Position numbers and translations under genes: made by a program. A stretch of 64,000 nucleotides of DNA, from positions 1 to 64,000 of the forward strand of contig NZ_JAVRIC010000020.1 in assembly GCF_031846245.1 (NCBI RefSeq). Reading direction: 5' to 3'. Below are positions 20,864 through 32,087 of the stretch, one piece after another. The DNA comes from Banduia mediterranea. Lineage in GTDB: Bacteria; Pseudomonadota; Gammaproteobacteria; Nevskiales; Nevskiaceae. The stretch's first letter is position 1, and the number at the start of each line of letters is the position of its first letter. The notes under the pieces are model-generated. The model was not told where the DNA came from. It was given only the letters and a program-made list of their open reading frames with translations, and did no database searches.

Positions 20864-23217
20864 CGCTCGCCTGCTCCCGGCACCAGAATTTCCCGATTGC
20901 CGCCGGGCCCGCTGGGACCGACCACGCCGGAGGCTTCCATCTGCTCGATCATGCGGGCCGCGCGGTTGTAGCCGATCTTGAGGCGGCGCTGTACCCAGGA
21001 TGTGGAGGCCTTGCCGGTTTCGATGACCAGGGCCACGGCCTGGTCGTAGAGCGGATCCTGCTCGGCATCCTCGGTCTCGGCACCGGTACCGGCATCGGGC
21101 TCGCCGGACACCACCGCCTCGATGTAGTCCGGTTCGCCGACCTGACGCAGGTAGGCGGCCACCTTGTGGACCTCATGGTCGTCGACGAAAGCGCCGTGCA
21201 CGCGATTGATGCGGCTGGAACCCACCGGGCGATACAACATGTCGCCGTGACCCAGCAAGGTTTCGGCGCCCATTTCATCGAGAATCGTGCGTGAATCCAC
21301 GCGCGAGGCCACCTGGAACGCCACGCGCGACGGGATATTGGCCTTGATCAGGCCGGTGATGACGTCGACGCTGGGGCGCTGGGTCGCAACGATCAAATGA
21401 ATACCGGCGGCACGCGCCTTCTGCGCGATACGGGCGATCAGCTCTTCGACCTTCTTGCCGACGACCATCATCATGTCCGCAAGCTCGTCGATGATGACCA
21501 CGATCGCCGGCACCGCGTCCAGATACACCGGTTCCGGCGTTTCGCCGTCCTCGAACAGATCCATGTCCGGCTTGGGCGCCAAGGGGTCGATCAGCGGCTT
21601 GCCGGCGGCCACCGCGTCCGCGATCTTGCGATTCAGGCCGGCCAGATTGCGCACCCCGATTTGCGTCATCAGACGGTAGCGGCGTTCCATTTCGCCGACA
21701 CACCAGCGCAGCGCATTGGCGGCATCCTTCATGTCAGTCACGACCGGCGTCAGCAGATGCGGAATGCCTTCGTAGACCGACAGCTCCAACATCTTCGGGT
21801 CGATCAGGATCAGGCGCACCTGATCGGCCGTGGCCCGATACAGGATCGACAGAATCATCACGTTGATCGCCACCGACTTGCCGGCACCGGTGGTGCCGGC
21901 CACCATCAAATGCGGCATCTTCGCCAGATCGATCACGACCGGATGGCCCGCGATGTCCTTGCCCAGCGCCAACGTGACCGGTGAAGCCGAATTCTGATAC
22001 GCCGGCCCGGATAGGATTTCAGAAAGCTGCACCATATCCCGGTGGTGGTTCGGGATTTCCAGGCCGATGACGGACTTGCCTTCGACCACCTCGATCACAC
22101 GCACGCTGGCCACGGACAGCGCACGCGCAAGATCCTTGGACAGATTCGTGACCTGGGAGCCCTTGACGCCCGGTGCCGGCTGCAATTCGAAACGCGTCAC
22201 TACCGGCCCCGGCTGTGCTGCGACCACGGTGGCGGTGACACCGAAGTCGGCCAGATGCTGCTCCACGTCACGCGAAATGCGCTCCAGATCAACCCCGCTG
22301 AAACCCTGCACCGACGGTCGCGGCGCATCGAGCATCGAAAGCGGCGGCAGCGGATCACCGGTAAACGGCGGCACCTCCACCTCGGCTTCCTCGGTGATCG
22401 GCAGACTCAGCTGCATTTCGGCCGCGGCGTTGGGAGCCTTGCGCCGCTTCTTCAGTTCGCGTTGCAAGGACGGCGAACTTTCGACCGGCGCCTCCGGACG
22501 TGCGCCGTTGGCGAGTGGCGGCGGCGACAGACTGAGCTCGCGTCGGTCCACGGCGAGCTTCGCGGAGTCCCGCGCCTTGTCACGTGCGGCGGCCGCCTCG
22601 GACCGGCGCCGGCGCCAGGACTGCCAGCCATTGAGCAGCACTTCACCCACACGGTCGAACAACATCAGCCAGGAGAACGTCAGCGCGATCGGCAGCGACG
22701 CGGCCAGCAAGGTCAGCAACAGCAGGCTCGCGCCGACCGTGCTCAATACGCCGACCAGCGTGTCCGCCAGCATCTGGCCGCTGATGCCGCCGCTGCCCTG
22801 CGGCACCCAATTGGGTGAGGCCCCCACGTGCTGCGCGAACAAGGCCGCGGTGCAGGCCACGGTCACGATGGCGGCGACGCCCCGCAGCGCCGCCGGTAGC
22901 CGGGCGATGAGTGGGTTGCGCAGGCTGCGGTAGGCATTGAGCCCCAGCGCAAAGACCAGCGCCGGCACCAGATAGGCCACATAGCCCAGCAGCGACAGCA
23001 GTACGTCGGCGATCCAGGCTCCGGTCACGCCAATCAGGTTATGGATGCGGCCGCCGTCACCACTCGACGACCAGCCGGGATCGCCCGGGCTGTAGCTGAA
23101 CAGCGCGACCAGCAAAAATACGGACAGACCCAGCGCCGTGGCGAACAAGGCCTCGTGCAGCAGGCGTTCGATCCAGCCGGGCCCGGTATCTACGGCCTGA
23201 GATTTGGGCTTTGGCAC
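20860..23217 (-). CDS. ftsK: DNA translocase FtsK
   Basis: The 785-residue protein has four to five N-terminal membrane helices (residues about 20-190), a short basic linker (about 200-290), then the RecA-like motor. Walker A is G-T-T-G-A-G-K-S, Walker B is V-I-I-D-E-L-A-D, and a C-terminal winged-helix gamma domain ([12 protein letters not shown]) reads KOPS sites. It couples chromosome dimer resolution to septation. The linker is much shorter than in E. coli. It starts at GTG 23217. A minus-strand TATACT and a 20-bp palindrome lie just upstream. Confidence 0.96.
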
Positions 23218-23259
23218 AGAAACTGCGGAATTACGATACGTGGATGAATCAGTCGTGCA

Positions 23260-23295
23260 AGTATATCAGTGCGTCCGCCTGAGCCGGCTCAGGCG
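23260..23295 (-). promoter_or_regulatory. Putative ftsK promoter with a 20-bp palindromic operator candidate
   Basis: TATACT on the minus strand (23265-23260) is a good -10 box about 43 nt before the ftsK start. No matching -35 is visible. Instead a perfect 20-bp palindrome occupies 23276-23295 (half site CGCCTGAGCC), right where the -35 would be. This arrangement suits an activator or repressor site, and the palindrome also lies upstream of the divergent gene at 23386. Confidence 0.4.
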
Positions 23296-23385
23296 CGGGC
23301 CGACCTCGTACTTGAATAATTGCACCGGAACCCTCATCAATGAGGCAGGTCTACAGGAGCATACGAGGCTCCGGGGGTCCGCAGC

Positions 23386-23721
23386 ATGCCAAACGAAATC
23401 CGCCATTTCATTCTCACGCCTGCCGGTACGGTGCGCGAGTTCTCGCCCGACGAGGCCGCCCAGGTCGCGACCGGCAGTGATACGCTGCCCGAATTCGCCA
23501 AGCACCGCCTGCGCTACCTGCAGGTCACCGTCGAAAGCGACAACGGCGCGGAAATTCGCGTGCAAACCGCCGGCGCCTGCATCGAATTCGACGAAACCGG
23601 GCGTATCGCCTCGGCCGATGCCCCGGAGAGCGCGGACGAACGCCTCAGCAAGTTCGAATATGACACCTGCATTCAATGGGCCTTGCGCGAAATTCCGGCG
23701 ACTGCCATCACATTTCACTAG
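23386..23721 (+). CDS. Conserved-looking small soluble protein of unknown function
   Basis: The 111-residue protein shows no signal peptide or membrane helix. It is mildly acidic and reads as folded alpha/beta (R-H-F-I-L-T-P-A-G-T-V-R-E-F). I do not recognise a family. It is the first gene of the plus-strand run that continues into the COG3146 acyltransferase 33 nt later (measured to the ATG at 23755), aat, bpt and infA, so it may share their transcript. A G-rich stretch (CCGGGGG) upstream serves as a plausible ribosome site. Protein-like codon use and clean spacing argue for a real gene. Confidence 0.65.
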   Translation: MPNEIRHFILTPAGTVREFSPDEAAQVATGSDTLPEFAKHRLRYLQVTVESDNGAEIRVQTAGACIEFDETGRIASADAPESADERLSKFEYDTCIQWALREIPATAITFH

Positions 23722-23754
23722 ACGGAAATCACCGTTTTGCCGCAGCCTGAATCC

Positions 23755-24909
23755 ATGAAGCTGCGGCATGTCTCCTCGATCAGTTCGGTTTCCGCCGAAG
23801 CCTGGGATCGCCAGTTCGATCCGGACTATCCGTTTACCCGGCACGCCTTTCTGGCGGCGTTGGAGCGTCACGGCTGCGTGGGCGCTGGAACGGGCTGGGA
23901 ACCCTGCCATCTGCTGGCGGAAACCGAGGCCGGCCAACTGCTTGGTGCGGTCCCGCTGTACCTGAAAACCCATTCCTACGGTGAGTTCGTATTCGATTTC
24001 AGCTGGGCCAATGCCAGTCATCAGCTCGGCAAGCCGTACTACCCGAAACTGGTCAGCACGATCCCGTTTACGCCGGTCTGCGGCCCGCGGTTGGGCACGA
24101 GCGCAGCGGGTGTGCAATCGGCACTGGGCGAAGCCCTGCTGAACACCACGCGGGACAACAGGCTGTCGTCCACGCATCTGCTGTTTCTGGATGAAGCCGC
24201 GGCTTCATCCCTGGAAGATCAGGATTTCCTGACGCGCCTCGACGTGCAGTTCCAGTGGTGCAATCGAGACTATGCCGACTTCGCCGGGTTTCTCGGCGGT
24301 CTGTCCAGCGACAAGCGCAAGAAGCTCCAACGCGAGCGTCGCCGCATTCGCGAAGCCGGCCTGCACTTCCGGCATTGCCGGGGCGAAGACCTCAGCGAAT
24401 CGGACTGGCATGACATCTACGCGCTTTATGCCAATACCTATGCCGAGCGTGGACAAAGCCCCTATCTGAGCCTGGATTTCTTTCTCGACTACGGCCGGAC
24501 CGCCCATTCCCCGATGCGGGTATTGAGTGCACATGACGGCGAGCGACGCGTGGCCGCGGCCATCTGCCTGCACGGTGGCGACACGCTCTACGGCCGCAAT
24601 TGGGGCGCACGAGGCTACTACCACAGCCTGCATTTCGAGACTTGCTACTATCAAGGCATCGAGTTCTGCATCCGCGAAGGCCTGTCGCGTTTCGACGCCG
24701 GTGTTCAGGGGGCGCACAAGCTGGCACGCGGCTTCGACCCGGTGACCACCCGCTCCGCGCACCATCTACAGGATCCGCGGCTGCACTCCGCAGTGGCGGC
24801 ATTCTTGCAGCGGGAACGCGAAGCGGTGGAAGCCGAGCGCTGGGATCTGCTCGAACACAGCGCGTTTCGCGCCGCCGAGCAGGAGCGACAGCGAAGCACC
24901 GACGCATGA
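23755..24909 (+). CDS. FemAB-like predicted N-acyltransferase (COG3146, PF04339 type)
   Basis: The protein is 384 residues from ATG 23755; a TTG at 23737 would add six residues unlike family starts. Matching marks are N-P/Y-P-F-T-R-H-A-F-L-A-A-L-E, A-V-P-L-Y-L-K-T-H-S-Y-G-E-F-V-F-D, P-F-T-P-V-C-G-P-R-L and a second GNAT half with F-F-L-D-Y-G-R and R-N-W-G-A-R-G-Y-Y-H-S-L-H-F-E-T-C-Y-Y-Q. Fem-type enzymes use aminoacyl-tRNA to modify peptides, but this branch has no proven reaction. Its TGA overlaps the aat ATG by 4 nt, so it is co-translated with two aminoacyl-tRNA-protein transferases. Confidence 0.85.
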   Translation: MKLRHVSSISSVSAEAWDRQFDPDYPFTRHAFLAALERHGCVGAGTGWEPCHLLAETEAGQLLGAVPLYLKTHSYGEFVFDFSWANASHQLGKPYYPKLVSTIPFTPVCGPRLGTSAAGVQSALGEALLNTTRDNRLSSTHLLFLDEAAASSLEDQDFLTRLDVQFQWCNRDYADFAGFLGGLSSDKRKKLQRERRRIREAGLHFRHCRGEDLSESDWHDIYALYANTYAERGQSPYLSLDFFLDYGRTAHSPMRVLSAHDGERRVAAAICLHGGDTLYGRNWGARGYYHSLHFETCYYQGIEFCIREGLSRFDAGVQGAHKLARGFDPVTTRSAHHLQDPRLHSAVAAFLQREREAVEAERWDLLEHSAFRAAEQERQRSTDA

Positions 24910-25661
24910 CCACCGACAACCCCATCCGTCTGCACTGGCTGGACCCGCGCAACCCGCGGCAGGCGTTCCCGCCGCCGGGAAGCGCCATGCGCGACCCCAA
25001 CGGCCTGCTTGCGATCGGCGGTGATCTCTCGGTCACGCGCATGGTCCGGGCGTATTCCCAGGGCATCTTTCCCTGGTACAACCCGGATGAGCCGATACTC
25101 TGGTGGTGCCCCGACCCACGCGCGGTGCTCGAACCCTCCGCCTTCCGGATATCCCGCAGCTTCGCCAAGACACTGCGTCGCGGCGATTTCGCCGTTACGC
25201 TGAATCATTGCCCGGCGCAGGTTCTGGACGCCTGCGCCGGCCCGCGCCGTGGCAGTCGCGGCACCTGGCTGGGGCCGGACATGCGCAGCGCCTATCTGGA
25301 GTTGCACGAGACCGGCTTCTGCCAGAGCATCGAAGTGTGGCGCCACGGCCGGCTCATCGGCGGGCTTTACGGAGTTTCGATCGGTCGCGCGTTCTTCGGC
25401 GAATCGATGTTTTCACGCGAGCCGGACGCCTCGAAGATCGCCCTCGCCTTTCTGTGTCGCCAGCTCCAGGACTGGCGCTATGAATTGATCGATTGCCAGA
25501 TCAGTTCGGAACACCTGCAAAGTCTCGGCGCCGTCGATATCTCGCGCGAACGGTTTCTCGCGATGTTGCGTCAAGCGGTCGGCGTTCCCGGCAGGACCGG
25601 CAAGTGGCGCTTCGAGATTCCAGTGCCCGCGAGCCGCGAGCACCGCCCGGAGGGACCGTGA
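24906..25661 (+). CDS. aat: Leucyl/phenylalanyl-tRNA-protein transferase
   Basis: The 251-residue GNAT-fold enzyme has G-L-L-A-I-G-G-D-L-S, Q-G-I-F-P-W-Y, W-W-C-P-D-P-R and the core G-L-Y-G-V-S-I-G-R-A-F-F-G-E-S-M-F-S. It moves Leu or Phe from tRNA onto proteins with N-terminal Arg or Lys, creating primary N-degrons for ClpS-ClpAP. The start is the ATG at 24906 within the upstream stop (ATGA); the longer frame to 24600 is a shadow of the acyltransferase gene. Confidence 0.96.
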   Translation: MTTDNPIRLHWLDPRNPRQAFPPPGSAMRDPNGLLAIGGDLSVTRMVRAYSQGIFPWYNPDEPILWWCPDPRAVLEPSAFRISRSFAKTLRRGDFAVTLNHCPAQVLDACAGPRRGSRGTWLGPDMRSAYLELHETGFCQSIEVWRHGRLIGGLYGVSIGRAFFGESMFSREPDASKIALAFLCRQLQDWRYELIDCQISSEHLQSLGAVDISRERFLAMLRQAVGVPGRTGKWRFEIPVPASREHRPEGP

Positions 25662-26365
25662 CCGACGCCCGCATCCGGCTCTACCTGGGCACCGACCATG
25701 CCTGCGGCTATCTCGACACCCGCACCGCGCGCAGCCTGTTCATCGACCCGAAGCTGCCGCTGGATGCCCGGCGCTACGCGATGTTCCTGGATCTGGGATT
25801 CCGACGCAGCGGCGATTACGTCTACCGGCCGCATTGCCAGGGTTGCAGCGCCTGCATGCCAGCGCGGGTTCCGGTTCGGGAATTTGCCCCCGATCGCGCG
25901 CAACGGCGCTGCCTGCGGTCCAATCGCGCCGTCGACGTCACGACCGGCGACGACCTGGATGACGAACACTTCGCGCTGTACCGCCGCTATCTCGCCGCAC
26001 GTCATCCCGGCGGCGGCATGGACGCCGATGACCGTGAAGCGTTTCGCAGCTTCCTGGGTTGCCGCTGGCAGCAGCCGCAGATCTGGGCGTTTCGTGAGCA
26101 TGGCCGCCTGCTTGCCGGCGCCGTGGTCGACGTGCTGCCGCATGGCCTGTCGGCGGTTTACACCTATTTCGACCCTGAGCTGCGGCCACGCGGCCTCGGC
26201 ACTTTCGCCGTGCTGACCGAGATTGCCAAGGCGCGTGAATCCGGTCTGGACTACGTTTATCTGGGCTATTGGGTGCCCGGCAGCGAGACCATGGACTACA
26301 AGCGACGCTTCAGGCCATTGGAGGTTCTCGAAAACGGCCATTGGTCACGAATTGCCGAATGCTGA
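25658..26365 (+). CDS. bpt: Aspartate/glutamate leucyltransferase Bpt (Ate1-like)
   Basis: The protein is 235 residues from GTG 25658, preceded by GGAGG and overlapping the aat stop (GTGA). The N-terminal cluster with C-x2-C in [12 protein letters not shown], and the later [11 protein letters not shown] and [13 protein letters not shown], place it in the Ate/Bpt family. Bpt attaches Leu to N-terminal Asp or Glu, extending the N-degron pathway to secondary acidic residues absent from E. coli's set. Confidence 0.95.
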
Positions 26366-26411
26366 GCGAATGCCGATAATGGCGCGCTTTTTTTCGAAAC
26401 CCGAAGGCTCC

Positions 26412-26630
26412 ATGCCCAAAGAAGATCATATTGAAATGGAAGGTACGGTCCTTGAGACCCTGCCCAACACCACGTTCCGTGTAAAGCTCGAGAATGGTCA
26501 CGTCGTGACCGCTCACATCTCCGGCCGCATGCGCAAGCATTACATCCGCATACTCAGAGGCGACAAGGTCAAGCTGGAAATGACCCCCTACGACCTCAGC
26601 AAGGCCCGCATTACCTACCGGGACAAATAA
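26412..26630 (+). CDS. infA: Translation initiation factor IF-1
   Basis: The 72-residue OB-fold protein reads [13 protein letters not shown], then [17 protein letters not shown] and R-I-L-R-G-D-K-V. It binds the ribosomal A site and aids IF-2 and IF-3. The start at 26412 has GAAGG 4 nt upstream; the longer frame is spurious. infA closes the aat-bpt run and faces clpA tail to tail. Confidence 0.98.
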
Positions 26631-26872
26631 GCGTCCCGGTGTTGTCGCCGCCTTCATCGTCAGAATGCGGCTGCTTCGATTCCCAAACTGCATGACTGCG
26701 ACCGTCCCGAACGACGTTCGCGGTTTTGTCGTGTCCGTTGTCCGGATTCATGTCGGACACATTGGGGAGGCGGCCCGGAACCAAAGCGTCAATCGGTGGG
26801 CGGGTATGGATTCCACGTCCCCGCTGCGCGCGCGCCGGAAGGGCGACTTTGCCAGTCGCCTCGGCGAACGCG

Positions 26873-26896
26873 AAAAAAAGCGGCCCGAAGGCCGCT
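26873..26896 (-). terminator. Rho-independent terminator of clpS-clpA
   Basis: The stem AGCGGCC / GGCCGCT with a tetraloop is followed on the minus strand by seven T. It lies about 30 nt past the clpA stop. The rest of the infA-clpA spacer (26631-26872) holds no recognisable gene or RNA. Confidence 0.9.
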
Positions 26897-26924
26897 GTGA
26901 TGATCAAGCTTGCTGAACACCCGA

Positions 26925-29198
26925 TCAGGCGATCTCAAGCTGCGCAATCTGCTCGCGACTTTCGATCTCGAAGCTCAAGGCATCGTCAGTCACGCTGACC
27001 ACAACCCGGCCGCCACCGGAGAGCTTGCCGAACAACAGCTCTTCGGCCAGCGGTCGCTTGATGTTTTCCTGTATGACCCGCGCCATCGGCCGCGCACCCA
27101 TCTTGATGTCGAAGCCGTTGTCGGCCAGCCAGATGCGGGCATCCTCGTCCACCGTCAGGCGAACAGCCTTGGACCCCAGCTGTTCCTCGAGTTGCAGCAG
27201 GAACTTGTCGACCACCCGGAACACCGCTTCCTTGGGCAGCGCGGCGAACGGCACGATCGCATCCAGTCGGTTGCGGAATTCCGGCGTAAAGGCCTTGCGG
27301 ATGATTTCCATGGCGTCGCTGGTGTTGTCCTGCTCCGAGAAACCGATCGAACGCCGCGCCACCTGTTCCGCGCCGGCATTGGTCGTCATGATCAGGATGA
27401 CGTTGCGGAAATCCACGTGGCGTCCGTTGTTGTCCGTCAGCGTGCCGTGATCCATGACCTGCAACAACAGATTGAACACATCCGGATGCGCCTTCTCGAC
27501 CTCGTCGAGCAATACCACGGCGTGCGGATGCTTGAGCACCTGGTCGGTCAGCAAACCGCCTTGGTCGAATCCGACGTAACCCGGAGGCGCACCGATCAGG
27601 CGCGAGATGGTGTGCCGCTCCATGTACTCGGACATGTCGAAGCGGATCATCTCGATACCGAGCAGTGAAGCCAGCTGGCGCGTGACTTCGGTCTTGCCGA
27701 CACCGGTAGGGCCGGCCAACAGGAACGAACCGATCGGCTTGTCCGGATTGCCGAGGCCGGAGCGCGACATCTTGATGCTCGAAGTCAGCGCGTTGACGGC
27801 GTCGTCCTGCCCGTAGATCACGAGCTTGAGGTCGCGTTCCAGCGAGGCCAGACGATCACGATCGGAGCTGGTCACCGCCTTCGGCGGGATTCGCGCGATG
27901 CGCGCCACGGTGTCCTCGATGTCCTTGACCTGCACGGTCTTGCGCTTGCGGCCTTCCGGCAGCAGGCGCAGGCGTGCCGCAGCCTCGTCGATGATGTCGA
28001 TGGCCTTGTCCGGCAGGTGCCGGTCGGTGATGTGCCGAGCCGACAGCTGAACCGCCGCTTCCAGCGCCGGGCGCGTGAAATGCACCTGGTGATGTTCTTC
28101 GAACCGTTCCTTGAGCCCTTCGAGAATCTTGATGGTGTCGGTGACGGACGGCTCGACCACGTCGATCTTCTGGAAGCGCCGCGCCAGGGCGCGGTCCTTC
28201 TCGAACACGCCGCGGTATTCCTGGTAGGTGGTCGAACCGATGCAGCGCAGTTCGCCGGAGGACAGCAGCGGCTTGAGCAGGTTGGAGGCATCCATGACGC
28301 CGCCACTGGCGGCGCCGGCACCGATGATGGTGTGGATTTCGTCGATGAACAGGATCGCGCCCTTGCGCTCGCCCAGCTCGGCGAGCACGCCCTTCAGGCG
28401 CTTCTCGAAATCACCGCGGTATTTGGTGCCGGCGATCAGCGAGCCGAGGTCGAGGCTGTAGACCACACCGCCCTTGAGCAGATCCGGCACGCGGTTCTGT
28501 GTGATCAGCCAGGCCAGACCCTCGGCGATGGCGGTCTTGCCGACACCGGCCTCGCCGACCAGCAGCGGATTGTTCTTGCGCCGCCGGCACAGCGTCTGCA
28601 TGACGCGCTCGATTTCCAGCTCGCGCCCGATCAGCGGGTCGATCTTGCCCTTCTTGGCGCGCTCGTTGAGGTTGGTGGCGAACTGCTCCAAGGCGGGCTG
28701 CTCGCCGCCGGCGGCCGCTTCCTTGTCGGCGGACTCCCCGGACTGCGGGGCTTCGTTCTCGCCCGAGACCTTGGAAATACCGTGCGAGATGTAATTGACC
28801 ACGTCGAGGCGCGATACCCCCTGCTCACCGAGCAGATAGACCGCCTGCGTGTCCTTCTCGCTGAAGATCGCGACCAGGACGTTGAGCGTGGAGACCTGCT
28901 TCTTGCCGGCCGACTGCACGTGGTAGATCGCGCGCTGCAGAACGCGCTGGAACGACAGCGTGGGCTGAACGTCGCGTTCCTCGCCGTCAGCCACCTTTTG
29001 CACGTTCTGGCGAATGTAGTCACGCAGACCCTGCTCCAGCGCTTCGAGATCGGCGCCCGAGGCGCCCAGCACCTCGTTGACATTGGCATCGGAGAGCAGC
29101 GCCAGCAGCAGGTGCTCGACCGTCAACAGATCGTGACCGTCTCCACGCGCCGACAGGAAGGCGGCGTCCAAGGCTTTCTGCAATTCATCGCTCAACAT
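26925..29198 (-). CDS. clpA: ATP-dependent Clp protease ATP-binding subunit ClpA
   Basis: The 757-residue protein has an N-domain (1-145) that binds ClpS, an acidic linker (about 146-170), D1 with Walker A G-E-A-G-V-G-K-T, and D2 with G-P-T-G-V-G-K-T and D-E-V-E-K-A-H. The D2 sensor region carries a ClpP-docking loop near I-G-F-S. ClpA hexamers unfold substrates for ClpP. ATG 29198 shares TGATG with the clpS stop. Confidence 0.97.
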   Translation of the reverse strand: MLSDELQKALDAAFLSARGDGHDLLTVEHLLLALLSDANVNEVLGASGADLEALEQGLRDYIRQNVQKVADGEERDVQPTLSFQRVLQRAIYHVQSAGKKQVSTLNVLVAIFSEKDTQAVYLLGEQGVSRLDVVNYISHGISKVSGENEAPQSGESADKEAAAGGEQPALEQFATNLNERAKKGKIDPLIGRELEIERVMQTLCRRRKNNPLLVGEAGVGKTAIAEGLAWLITQNRVPDLLKGGVVYSLDLGSLIAGTKYRGDFEKRLKGVLAELGERKGAILFIDEIHTIIGAGAASGGVMDASNLLKPLLSSGELRCIGSTTYQEYRGVFEKDRALARRFQKIDVVEPSVTDTIKILEGLKERFEEHHQVHFTRPALEAAVQLSARHITDRHLPDKAIDIIDEAAARLRLLPEGRKRKTVQVKDIEDTVARIARIPPKAVTSSDRDRLASLERDLKLVIYGQDDAVNALTSSIKMSRSGLGNPDKPIGSFLLAGPTGVGKTEVTRQLASLLGIEMIRFDMSEYMERHTISRLIGAPPGYVGFDQGGLLTDQVLKHPHAVVLLDEVEKAHPDVFNLLLQVMDHGTLTDNNGRHVDFRNVILIMTTNAGAEQVARRSIGFSEQDNTSDAMEIIRKAFTPEFRNRLDAIVPFAALPKEAVFRVVDKFLLQLEEQLGSKAVRLTVDEDARIWLADNGFDIKMGARPMARVIQENIKRPLAEELLFGKLSGGGRVVVSVTDDALSFEIESREQIAQLEIA

Positions 29199-29515
29199 CA
29201 GGCTTTCTCCATCACGGTCAGCAACGGGTGCTGGTTCTGGCGGGCGAAGCTGTTGACCTGGGCCACTTTGGTCTCCGCTATTTCCGACGGGAAGATGCCC
29301 GCCACTCCACGGCCCTGCGTGTGTACCTGCAGCATGATTTGTACCGCTTTTTCATGTGCATGGTGAAAGAACTTCTGCAGAACCAGTACAACGAACTCCA
29401 TGGGGGTGAAGTCATCGTTGACCACGATGACCTTGTACATCGGAGGCTGCTGCAGGCGAGGCTTGGCCTCGTCAGTGACGACATCGAGCAGACCTTCGCG
29501 TTGGTTCTCGGACAT
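29198..29515 (-). CDS. clpS: ClpA adaptor protein ClpS
   Basis: The 105-residue N-recognin has a flexible N-tail (residues 1-25) followed by [16 protein letters not shown], the hydrophobic pocket that binds N-terminal Leu, Phe, Trp and Tyr. A conserved H-H-A-H-E-K-A helix follows. It delivers N-degron substrates made by Aat and Bpt, encoded just across infA, to ClpAP. Confidence 0.97.
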
Positions 29516-29700: not shown

Positions 29701-31911
29701 CTATTTGGTCTTGAACACGAACACGCCGTCCCAGTCGACGGGCGGCGGCGTCACGCGTAGCTGCCGCACCCGATCCAGGTACAGACCATACAATCTGCGC
29801 TCCGGTTCCCGCCTTGCAAGTTCGAGCCAGGCGGCCTCGGCCTGATTCCAGCGGGCGCCACGATAGGCCTGCAAGGCACCACGATGTCGCGCCAGCGACT
29901 CCCGCACGGAACTGCTCAGTTCCTCCTTGGGGCCCAAGGGTTCGAAGATCGTCACCGGGCGTTCCTTGCCCTTGACGCGCACGCAATCGAGCTCGCGCAT
30001 CGCCCAATCGGACGGCAGCGCCTCACGCGTGATCTCGCTGATGATGATCGGCACGCCGTAGACCTTGGTCAGGCCCTCCAGACGCGAGGCGAGGTTCACC
30101 GGATCGCCCATCACGGTATAAGCCACCCGGAATTCGGAACCCATGTTGCCGACGCGCATGTCGCCACTGCCGATGCCGATGCCGATCCGGATCGCGGGCC
30201 AGCCGCGCGCCTCGAACTGCGGATTGAGCGCTTGCACCGCCGCCACCATGTCCAGGGCTGCACGGACTGCGTTCAGGGCGTGCGACTCGTCCGGCAACGG
30301 CGCGCCCCAGAACGCCATGATCGCGTCACCCATGTACTTGTCGATCGTGCCGCGATACTGCTGGATGCAGCGGGTCTGCGGCGTCAGGAACTGGTTCATC
30401 ATGTCCGACAGCGATCTTGCGTCCAGTCGTTCCGAGATCGAGGTGAAATCCCGCACATCGGAAAACAGCACGGTCATATCGCGGATGTCGCCCTCCATCG
30501 ACACCACCTGCGGCCGCGCCGCCATTTCCTCGACCAGTTGCGGCGGCACGTATTGCCCGAACAGCCGGGAAATCTCGCGCTTGCCGCGCGATTCCACGAA
30601 ATAGCCGAACAGCTGCTGGGCCAGGAACAGAAACAGCGTGAACACCACCGGCACGCCCATCGGCAGGATCGCGCCGAGCTGCCAGGCCAGCAGGGCACCA
30701 CCGACGACCGCCAGCGCCACCCCGGCGGCGAGTCCGGCACCCGCCAGCGGTGACAGGCGTGGAAACAGCAGGCCGATCAGCAACGCGATCAGCGCCAGCT
30801 CCACCACTTCCAGCCCCAGGTAATAGGACGGTTTCTTGCGGATCTGGCCCTCCAGCATGCCGGCAATCAGATTGGCGTGGATTTCCACGCCCGGAAATGC
30901 ACGCGCCACCGGCGTGACCCGCAGGTCGAGCAGGCCCGGCGCCGTCGTGCCGAGCAATACGATGGCGTCCCGAAGCACGCCCGGCTCGACACTTCGGCGC
31001 AGGACATCGGTCGCCGAGACATAGGGAAACGAGCGATATCCACCGCGATACGGAACCCAGGCGGCGACCTGCTCGTCCACCGGAATCTCCAGCGGGCCGA
31101 GTTCAACGGCTTCCAGATTCAGCGAGCGGCGCTTTGCCGGGGGGTCGAACAGCAGCGAAACCGGAGCGCCGCCCAAGGCGGCACGGGTCACGCTGAGCGC
31201 CAGCGACGGATAGACCCGACCCTGATAGGCCTGCACCAAGGGCACGCGGCGGTACACGCCGTCGTCGTCCACCAGCGGGTTTTCGAAGAATCCGCCGAGG
31301 CCCGAAGGCGCTTGCAAGCCCTGGAGGTTGCCCGTAAACCCGTGCGGCGCGACGTAGTCCACGGCGTCCTCGACGGCAAACAGCGGTGGCCCCAGAACGC
31401 CCTGTTCCGGCGCTTCGTCCGATTTCACGGATTGCTTGAAGACGAAACCCATGACCACTGCGCGATCGCTCAGCGCCTCGGCGAACCGGCGATCATGATC
31501 GATCTGCGCCGAGACCGCCGCGCTCGCGGCCGCGAAACCCGGCAGACGGCCGACAGCACTGTCGCTGAGCCGAGACAGTAGCCGCGACGGTGACTGCCCG
31601 TCCGGCTCCGGAAACGTCATGTCCAGCCCGAGTACGCGAATGTTGTAGTCGTCAAACAGGCGGTCGACCAGGTCGGCCAGCAGATCGCGGGGCCACGGCC
31701 ATTGGCCTTCGGCGGCCAGGCTCTTTTCATCGAGATCGACGATCACGATCGGGGCCTGGGATTGCGCCTGGGCCGGCAGGCGCATGCGGGCGTCGTAGGT
31801 GAAGGTCTCGATCCGGTCGAGCAGGCGCCAGCGCAGCTGGCCTGCGCTGTGCAGTGCGAACAATGTGAACACGGCCGCGCCAATCGCGAGCCGCACTATC
31901 GAACGCTGCAT
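29701..31911 (-). CDS. CHASE2-domain adenylate/guanylate cyclase
   Basis: The 736-residue protein (from ATG 31911, preceded by GGAGG) has one N-terminal membrane helix. A periplasmic CHASE2 sensor follows (about 30-360: P-I-V-I-V-D-L-D-E-K-S, F-P-E-P-D-G, G-T-T-A-P-G-L-L-D-L-R), then three helices (about 365-460). The C-terminal class III cyclase keeps both metal-binding Asp residues (L-F-S-D-V-R-D-F and I-D-K-Y-M-G-D-A), substrate-site Lys in D-K-Y, and N-L-A-S-R-L with the transition-state Asn and Arg. It should make cAMP or cGMP in response to a periplasmic cue. It lies divergent from gspC and downstream of clpS. Confidence 0.88.
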   Translation of the reverse strand: MQRSIVRLAIGAAVFTLFALHSAGQLRWRLLDRIETFTYDARMRLPAQAQSQAPIVIVDLDEKSLAAEGQWPWPRDLLADLVDRLFDDYNIRVLGLDMTFPEPDGQSPSRLLSRLSDSAVGRLPGFAAASAAVSAQIDHDRRFAEALSDRAVVMGFVFKQSVKSDEAPEQGVLGPPLFAVEDAVDYVAPHGFTGNLQGLQAPSGLGGFFENPLVDDDGVYRRVPLVQAYQGRVYPSLALSVTRAALGGAPVSLLFDPPAKRRSLNLEAVELGPLEIPVDEQVAAWVPYRGGYRSFPYVSATDVLRRSVEPGVLRDAIVLLGTTAPGLLDLRVTPVARAFPGVEIHANLIAGMLEGQIRKKPSYYLGLEVVELALIALLIGLLFPRLSPLAGAGLAAGVALAVVGGALLAWQLGAILPMGVPVVFTLFLFLAQQLFGYFVESRGKREISRLFGQYVPPQLVEEMAARPQVVSMEGDIRDMTVLFSDVRDFTSISERLDARSLSDMMNQFLTPQTRCIQQYRGTIDKYMGDAIMAFWGAPLPDESHALNAVRAALDMVAAVQALNPQFEARGWPAIRIGIGIGSGDMRVGNMGSEFRVAYTVMGDPVNLASRLEGLTKVYGVPIIISEITREALPSDWAMRELDCVRVKGKERPVTIFEPLGPKEELSSSVRESLARHRGALQAYRGARWNQAEAAWLELARREPERRLYGLYLDRVRQLRVTPPPVDWDGVFVFKTK

Positions 31912-32087
31912 GATGCCCCGCCTCCCCCGTGATCCCCAACAGTCATTGTAGTGGTGCTGCGTACGGCCACCATGTTCGAGACTGGCGGCGAGCCGATCAC
32001 AGACGAACACCAAGTCTTTCAACCGGATACAATTTCTGTCGTCACCGGGCTACGCGGCGTCACGGTCGCAAGGTATCATCGCGCGAC

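Follow-up and report, generated by a model that had tools for sequence, protein, structure and literature searches.

The gene preceding aat and bpt in the window, as we call the whole 64,000-nucleotide stretch of Banduia mediterranea DNA analysed here, encodes a COG3146 protein that has the fold of the aminoacyl-tRNA-dependent transferases and carries conserved elements. The gene is coupled to aat in Gammaproteobacteria and to clpS/clpA also in some Alphaproteobacteria. We tentatively read the protein as a soluble candidate aminoacyl-tRNA transferase that would act within bacterial N-degron proteolysis, in the branch of Aat and ClpS, a reading to which we give a nearly even chance.

In bacteria, the known enzymes for tRNA-dependent tagging of N termini are Aat and Bpt. 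Few natural substrates of such tagging are known, according to PMC2988409. With the right fold, an overlap with aat in several families and a presence in plants, COG3146 is a concrete candidate enzyme for one more specificity of tagging. It may supply a step so far missing from the pathway in which the first residue of a protein marks it for destruction. If so, it could account for turnover governed by the N terminus in organisms and plastids without Aat.

Gene organization in the window

COG3146 (384 aa) is encoded on the forward strand at 23755..24909, with an ATG start at 23755 (a TTG at 23737 is a possible alternative) and a stop ending at 24909. Its family match, AlphaFold2 model and fold matches point to a candidate aminoacyl-tRNA-dependent transferase. 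Two genes follow on the same strand: aat, for leucyl/phenylalanyl-tRNA--protein transferase (ATG at 24906, stop ending at 25661; PF03588 E 5.2e-71, TIGR00667 E 1.6e-59), and bpt/ate, for a bacterial ATE-type aminoacyl-tRNA--protein transferase (GTG at 25658, stop ending at 26365; PF04377 E 2.5e-39, PF04376 E 7.1e-24, NF002342). COG3146 and aat share ATGA (24906-24909), and aat and bpt share GTGA (25658-25661). The coordinates and family matches thus bear out the three consecutive overlapping genes described in an earlier note on this DNA. The arrangement is real and not a product of chance, since all three proteins score above their curated cut-offs and other families show the same order.

The earlier note also placed clpA and clpS just past infA, and this is where they lie. 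The gene for translation initiation factor IF-1, infA (26412..26630, forward strand), and the convergent clpA (26925..29198, reverse strand) were named from reading the sequence, while clpS, encoding the N-recognin adaptor (29198..29515, reverse strand), was identified by PF02617 (E 2.7e-34). At other loci too infA comes after aat or bpt, and clpA lies beside COG3146. The statement that all three overlapping genes encode GNAT-fold proteins stood in part: the general GNAT model PF13480 recognized COG3146 (E 6.1e-12) and Bpt (E 2.8e-6), and Aat had no match to it at E 0.01. Published structures of Aat contain a GNAT-like domain.

A 111-aa ORF of unassigned family (23386..23721, forward strand) is conserved just upstream of COG3146 and may be the opening gene of the operon. 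At E 0.01 it matched no model of Pfam or NCBIfam. Counterparts with 46-54 % identity are found at the same place in loci L072-L075 (Hydrocarboniphaga, Panacagrimonas, Polycyclovorans), and the ORF is present in 2 of the 94 Gammaproteobacteria genomes described below, the window's own among them. A promoter and terminator scan of 23200-26930 gave matches no more numerous than in shuffled sequences, and the PHROGs search gave no match.

Fold and conserved elements of COG3146

The protein matches PF04339 over its full length (448.7 bits, E 2.1e-134, 368 of 369 model positions; gathering cut-off 27), does not differ from COG3146/PF04339 (FemAB_like) at the family level, and is the sole PF04339 match in its own genome at E 0.001. 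PF04339 and PF13480 are its only Pfam matches at E 0.01. At the same threshold it matched neither the Aat models PF03588 and TIGR00667 nor the ATE_N/ATE_C models PF04376/PF04377, and PF02388 (FemABX) matched neither this protein nor any other in its genome. The literature and family descriptions searched yielded no assigned reaction for COG3146/PF04339.

Searched as a single sequence, the protein had no relative in the PDB (a DARPin came first, E 0.44), and with the COG3146 profile FemX appeared only at E 0.037. An RtcB homologue found with the profile of the C-terminal half (E 0.008) was taken as spurious; FemX had an E of 0.98 in that search. Profile-profile comparisons were not significant for Aat (E 0.064 over 30 columns) or for Bpt (E 0.29; C-terminal half E 0.43). 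The Bpt comparison aligned H321-K322 of COG3146 with the KMxYK element of Bpt, which we record only as a lead.

The AlphaFold2 model is confident (pLDDT 95.5) and consists of two GNAT domains in tandem. Among the best 50 rows of VIA-align, the top 22 belong to the aminoacyl-tRNA-dependent class (FemX, FemA, MprF type and Sba18/Sbb17; Z 17.4-19.9), one of them, 5vrv, being classed only as a putative enzyme. They are followed by a function-unknown protein (Z 15.8) and by CoA-type tandem GNATs from Z 14.3 down. The first 14 rows of Foldseek are likewise of the aminoacyl-tRNA-dependent class. Aat and ATE1 structures are absent from the best 50 rows of both searches, which excludes nothing, and the tandem-GNAT fold by itself leaves the donor unfixed.

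FemX and FemA (PF02388), the Ala- or Gly-tRNA-dependent peptidoglycan transferases, share the tandem GNAT along the greater part of residues 1-353 (Z 18.8-19.9) but only 10-12 % identity with COG3146, which lacks the PF02388 match and has conserved motifs of its own (HSxGEYVFDxxWAxA, GRxWG, LHFE and GxQGxHKxxRG). The catalytic domain of MprF/aminoacyl-phosphatidylglycerol synthase (Z 17.4-18.9) and the aminoacyl-tRNA-dependent peptide synthases Sba18/Sbb17 (Z 19.5-19.8) are alike in fold, both with an rmsd of 3.4-3.8 A. Unlike these, COG3146 has no membrane domain, and its recurrent context in part of the lineages is N-degron genes and not lipid or antibiotic genes. Aat and Bpt are encoded next to COG3146, yet it belongs to neither family.

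A basic helix covers residues about 184-200 (codons 24304..24354, forward strand; helix 185-200 in the AlphaFold2 model). In 66 sequences of the family R188 and R195 are invariant and K189 is conserved at 98 %, and the helix is the family's most positive 16-residue stretch, its net charge averaging +6.0 to +6.6. The GxQGxHKxxRGxxP element, residues 316-329 (codons 24700..24741, forward strand), has G316, Q318, G319, H321, K322, R325, G326 and P329 invariant in 66/66 sequences. A positively charged tRNA helix on the second GNAT domain and a catalytic lysine characterize the aminoacyl-tRNA-dependent class. The basic helix of COG3146 may correspond to the former and K322 to the latter, its proposed counterpart being Lys305, the catalytic lysine of FemX in PMC12945691, which stands at about the same register. 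This equivalence was judged only from that source and from the registers at the ends of the structural alignment. The earlier note would have taken loss of an aminoacyl-tRNA binding surface as evidence against its third aminoacyl-tRNA-dependent modifier; as far as can be judged from the fold class, the basic helix and the invariant HK, such a surface has not been lost.

Association of COG3146 with aat and clpS

We analysed 94 Gammaproteobacteria genomes, one per family and including the window's family. The COG3146 counts exclude weak PF04339 matches, of roughly 60 bits or below, as well as three hits that are partial or degraded (G271, G286, G252), and they include a split gene (G265) and a gene cut by a contig end (G281). 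COG3146 was found in 54 of the 94 genomes. The aat gene is present in 51 of these 54 compared to 16 of the 40 genomes without COG3146 (p 2e-4, stratified for genome size). In 33 of the 51 families with both genes, the window's own included, aat is the next gene downstream and has the same orientation; in 3 further families it lies 1.35-1.62 kb downstream. A 4-base overlap of COG3146 and aat was seen in 5 of 17 other loci examined.

Next to the 33 adjacent COG3146-aat pairs, bpt follows in 20 cases, is elsewhere in 8 and is absent in 5. The tie is therefore to aat and not to bpt, which is elsewhere or absent in 13 of 33 pairs. For 16 of the 33, clpS was not found within 10 kb. Three genomes (G207, G227 and G242) have COG3146 without aat, and all three keep clpS, an observation that is suggestive only: among aat-less genomes, COG3146 occurs in 3 of 11 with clpS and in 0 of 16 without (p 0.056).

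A second sample comprised 200 Pseudomonadota genomes, weighted by species, 81 of which have COG3146 (counting the split gene of G082). Distances were counted in 62 of the 81 for aat and in 76 for clpS; G094 has no clpS match. COG3146 lies within 25 kb of aat in 10/62 genomes and farther away or on another contig in 52/62. It is within 25 kb of clpS in 24/76 genomes versus 0.86 expected, and these 24 span 10 family labels, one family supplying 9. The unrelated control SelO is near aat in 0/104 and near clpS in 1/103 genomes, a somewhat lenient control drawn from all 125 SelO genomes, many of the later-added ones being fragmented. Taken together, the distance counts, the adjacent pairs of the one-per-family sample and this control indicate that the linkage of COG3146 to aat, clpS or clpA exceeds chance. 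For bpt the count within 25 kb is 4/75, and 1 within 10 kb, and bpt was rejected as the main linkage partner on this count and on the 13/33 pairs above. Phylum-level co-occurrence was dropped as evidence in favour of the one-per-family sample because SelO does as well: aat is present in 122/125 SelO genomes compared to 81/81 COG3146 genomes (p 0.28).

The expectation that COG3146 keeps company with aat-bpt thus needs revision. Counted by family in Gammaproteobacteria, COG3146 lies mostly beside aat and co-occurs with it, whereas across the species of the phylum it lies mostly away from aat and co-occurs with it no better than SelO does. The tie to bpt failed; COG3146 is linked with aat and, for part of the lineages, with clpS/clpA.

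Several loci keep the complete string ftsK-COG3146-aat-bpt-infA-clpA-clpS. At 56 of 80 named loci (Pseudomonas, Halomonas and Burkholderia among them) none of nine other window genes was found in the flanks searched, many of which are truncated. Same-strand neighbours in Alphaproteobacteria are RidA, GDPD and HIT; clpA is convergent there and so not co-transcribed with COG3146. Clusters of RidA, GDPD and HIT recur within 6 kb at 16, 12 and 10 of 120 loci, chiefly in Alphaproteobacteria, and a gene of the EipB-like family (PF08904), whose product we take to be an envelope protein, in 12 of 120. E. coli has aat and clpS family matches and no PF04339 match. For cyanobacteria, covered by named control genomes only, Synechococcus elongatus matched PF04339, PF03588 and PF02617 and not PF04377. 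Homologues also occur in flowering plants (At2g23390; cotton GhACNAT).

Proposed function and alternative readings

We propose that the tandem-GNAT protein would move an amino acid from aminoacyl-tRNA onto an acceptor amine. The conserved basic helix would grip the acceptor end of the tRNA, and the aminoacyl ester would enter the cleft between the two GNAT domains, beside the invariant H321-K322 and the GRxWG/HFE elements. The acceptor amine would then attack the ester with K322 in place of the FemX lysine. This acceptor would most likely be a protein or peptide N terminus not handled by Aat or Bpt themselves, and the product would be a ClpS ligand or carry a residue then extended by Aat or Bpt. 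Use of aminoacyl-tRNA seems likely to us and a role in the Aat/ClpS pathway fairly likely. A protein N terminus as acceptor is more tentative, somewhat short of an even chance, and feeding rather than shielding of N-degrons is a guess.

The same chemistry could serve a lipid, an amino sugar or another small molecule, unrelated to N-degrons; the gene would then lie near aat because enzymes that consume tRNA are regulated together. In fold, lipid enzymes of the MprF type and Sba18/Sbb17, the streptothricin peptide synthases, come about as close as FemX (Z 17.4-19.8), the RidA, GDPD and HIT clusters recur near COG3146, and N-degron genes are unlinked to it in many lineages. We nevertheless hold a non-protein acceptor to be unlikely: no membrane part is seen, the 384 aa falling in the folded tandem-GNAT model, and 33 families show the tie to aat, with a tie to clpS in a further group. 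The acetyl-CoA and peptidoglycan readings are weaker. A CoA-dependent acyltransferase, for example an N-terminal acetylase shielding N-degrons, would agree with the PF13480 superfamily match, but CoA-type tandem GNATs score Z 14.3 or less against 17.4-19.9 for the aminoacyl-tRNA class. Moreover, [QR]xxGx[GA], the pyrophosphate loop motif of CoA-dependent GNAT acyltransferases, is not conserved, being present at no position in more than 5 of 66 sequences. The plant homologues At2g23390 and GhACNAT are named acyl-CoA N-acyltransferase, but the cotton paper, in the part available, shows expression and silencing rather than purified activity; we consider such an enzyme quite improbable.

Pfam describes the family as 'Peptidogalycan biosysnthesis/recognition' (sic), and FemX and FemA are among the best fold matches and the EipB-like gene recurs nearby. 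A peptidoglycan branching enzyme is nonetheless highly improbable: PF02388 is unmatched, known peptidoglycan genes make up 0/10 of the recurrent neighbours annotated (other recurrent clusters lie outside this count), and COG3146 occurs in flowering plants and Proteobacteria. To our knowledge, the former make no peptidoglycan and that of the latter has no interpeptide branches. It is also conceivable, though very unlikely, that COG3146 is an unrelated housekeeping gene which has simply stayed within an old string of gammaproteobacterial genes, as the conservation from ftsK to clpS in several loci and the large genera without the linkage would allow. Against such pure synteny, the COG3146-aat pair persists without adjacent bpt and without nearby clpS, the overlapping joints recur, and the presence of COG3146 correlates with that of aat across families.

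Gene pairing at the locus

In the window, the COG3146/PF04339 gene (23755-24909) is followed on the same plus strand by aat (24906-25661), bpt (25658-26365) and infA (26412-26630), and then on the minus strand by clpA (26925-29198) and clpS (29198-29515). The earlier note described an ATGA common to COG3146 and aat and a GTGA common to aat and bpt, and both are present. It also proposed COG3146 as a third aminoacyl-tRNA-dependent modifier beside Aat and Bpt, feeding or counteracting the N-degron pathway. We find this idea better supported than its author knew, but the partner is aat and not the aat-bpt pair. COG3146 is the single PF04339 match of the genome at E 0.001, and its protein shares 57-59 % identity with those of the nearest named relatives, Hydrocarboniphaga and Panacagrimonas. 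Beside clpS lies a large ORF (29701-32022, minus strand) for a putative adenylate cyclase of the CHASE2 type, judging by its sequence.

We used 94 Gammaproteobacteria genomes with 94 distinct family labels; 54 carry COG3146, 67 aat, 53 bpt and 74 clpS. Of the 51 genomes with both COG3146 and aat, 33, the window genome among them, have aat less than 1 kb downstream on the same strand, the gap being measured between profile matches. Three more (G211, G241, G280) have it 1.35-1.62 kb downstream, while 12 have the genes on separate contigs and 3 farther apart on the same contig. Of these 33 pairs, 20 are followed by bpt, which sits elsewhere in 8 genomes and is missing from 5; a clpS gene lies no more than 10 kb away in 17. 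Because bpt follows only 20 and clpS is near only 17, the conserved unit is COG3146-aat, with bpt and clpAS as optional neighbours.

Across the same families, aat is found in 51/54 genomes with COG3146 versus 16/40 without it (Mantel-Haenszel odds ratio of 13.7 with genome size as strata, p 2e-4), and bpt in 42/54 versus 11/40. COG3146 occurs without aat in three genomes (G207, G227, G242), and all three also have clpS. Of the families lacking aat, COG3146 occurs in 3/11 with clpS versus 0/16 without (p 0.056), a count that omits a partial PF04339 match in G271. G227 is a 0.9 Mb genome, 97 % complete, that keeps COG3146 (C1:171365-172390) and clpS; a search of this genome for aat and bpt found neither. 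In G252 (contig C7), a short PF04339 match (67966-68094, profile positions 2-44, 70-aa frame) lies immediately upstream of aat (68272-68784), as though COG3146 had disappeared from this very site.

Named loci number at least 592; in the 80 with the best scores, many of them with truncated flanks, aat turns up 13 times, bpt 11, clpA 19 and clpS 18 times, and 56 show no other searched window gene. In L077 and L144, aat is followed by infA with no bpt between. At the 17 COG3146-aat joints examined, where the aat start is poorly placed in 4, a 4-base overlap is seen in five (L050, L065, L076, L079, L144) and a 1-base overlap in one. SelO, an unrelated control family, lies about 2 kb or less from COG3146 in L064 (G150) and L071 (G109), from two different families.

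A 111-aa plus-strand ORF (23386-23721) upstream of COG3146 gave no match when a family was looked for. It is present in 2 of the 94 genomes, and four named relatives carry a counterpart (46-54 % identity, TFH at the end).

Linkage to clpS across Pseudomonadota

In 200 evenly drawn Pseudomonadota genomes, COG3146 (counted above 300 bits) is found in 81, once as two split matches, aat in 174, bpt in 127 and clpS in 185. For genomes with both genes among the positions listed, clpS lies within 25 kb of COG3146 in 24/76, aat in 10/62 and bpt in 4/75, compared to 0.86, 0.70 and 0.85 expected for a 4.4-Mb genome. For SelO (125/200 genomes) the same distance holds clpS in 1/103 and aat in 0/104. The 24 clpS-linked genomes span 10 family labels, one family supplying 9; since the genomes of this sample are not independent, p values are at most a rough guide. 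COG3146 is linked to aat and, in some lineages, to clpS/clpA, but is unlinked in many genera. Co-occurrence in this sample was rejected as evidence: aat accompanies COG3146 in 81/81 genomes versus SelO in 122/125 (p 0.28).

In Alphaproteobacteria, clpA-clpS is often convergent with COG3146 (e.g. L033, L040-L044, L046, L133, L138), with aat outside the flank except in L033, where aat sits roughly 6 kb upstream, in the same orientation as COG3146. These loci support a position of COG3146 near ClpS genes; co-transcription with clpA-clpS is not supported. Rough ORF clustering, with ten clusters annotated, gave RidA (16/120 loci), GDPD (12), EipB-like (12) and HIT (10) proteins as recurrent within 6 kb, and this context leaves room for another COG3146 role. 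The order RidA - GDPD - COG3146 - HIT protein recurs (L041, L042, L048, L138 and others). HIT proteins of the HinT kind split aminoacyl-adenylates.

Predicted fold and active site

The AlphaFold2 model of COG3146, from the window protein and 65 relatives, has a pLDDT of 95.5 and a pTM of 0.92. MprF and FemA use aminoacyl-tRNA. Searched with Foldseek, the model returns FemX, Sba18/Sbb17, FemA and MprF/A-PGS/L-PGS in the first 14 rows, and VipF, an acetyl-CoA enzyme, in row 15. The same families fill the first 22 rows of VIA-align (Z 19.9-17.4), including 5vrv, a putative lysylphosphatidylglycerol synthetase. A protein of unknown function takes row 23 (Z 15.8), and CoA-type tandem GNATs follow from 14.3 down. 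For this predicted model the Z gap between aminoacyl-tRNA-class rows and CoA-type tandem GNATs is clear, though fold likeness alone proves no function. Aminoacyl-tRNA use by FemX and Sba18/Sbb17 is taken from structure entry titles or passages of a review (PMC12945691).

In 66 sequences that share 39 % identity or more with the window protein, the residues R188, R195, G280, R281, W283, G284, H293, F294, E295, G316, Q318, G319, H321, K322, R325, G326, P329, S334 and H336 are invariant. R188, G280, R281, W283, G284, H293, F294, G316, Q318, G319, H321, K322, R325 and P329 are invariant also in a 40-sequence alignment of other families. Passages of the same review name Lys305 as the sole reactive residue near the FemX substrate, cite a proposal that FemX grips the tRNA acceptor stem with a positively charged helix of its second GNAT domain, and give Phe328 and catalytic Lys329 for DhpH-C. 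K322 precedes residue 350, where the aligned part of the model ends, by 28 residues, and FemX Lys305 precedes the partner of that residue (335) by 30; given this similar spacing, the two probably coincide, as judged from end registers. The most positive stretch of the protein is residues 184-200. An acetyl-CoA loop motif, sought in the COG3146 sequences, is absent as a conserved feature. The candidate transferase likely uses aminoacyl-tRNA, and its putative N-degron role is plausible.

No link of COG3146 to aat or N-degrons was found among the literature matches listed, subscription papers being mostly outside the search. In excerpts of the plant literature, no L/F transferase candidate is reported for Arabidopsis (PMC2988409), and the working prediction of a "pterin-dependent enzyme" for COG3146/At2g23390 is among invalidated cases (PMC3223725). 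Likewise in excerpts, At2g23390 is listed in a soluble chloroplast proteome (PMC3531887), and silencing of a cotton homologue affects anther development (PMC4488762).
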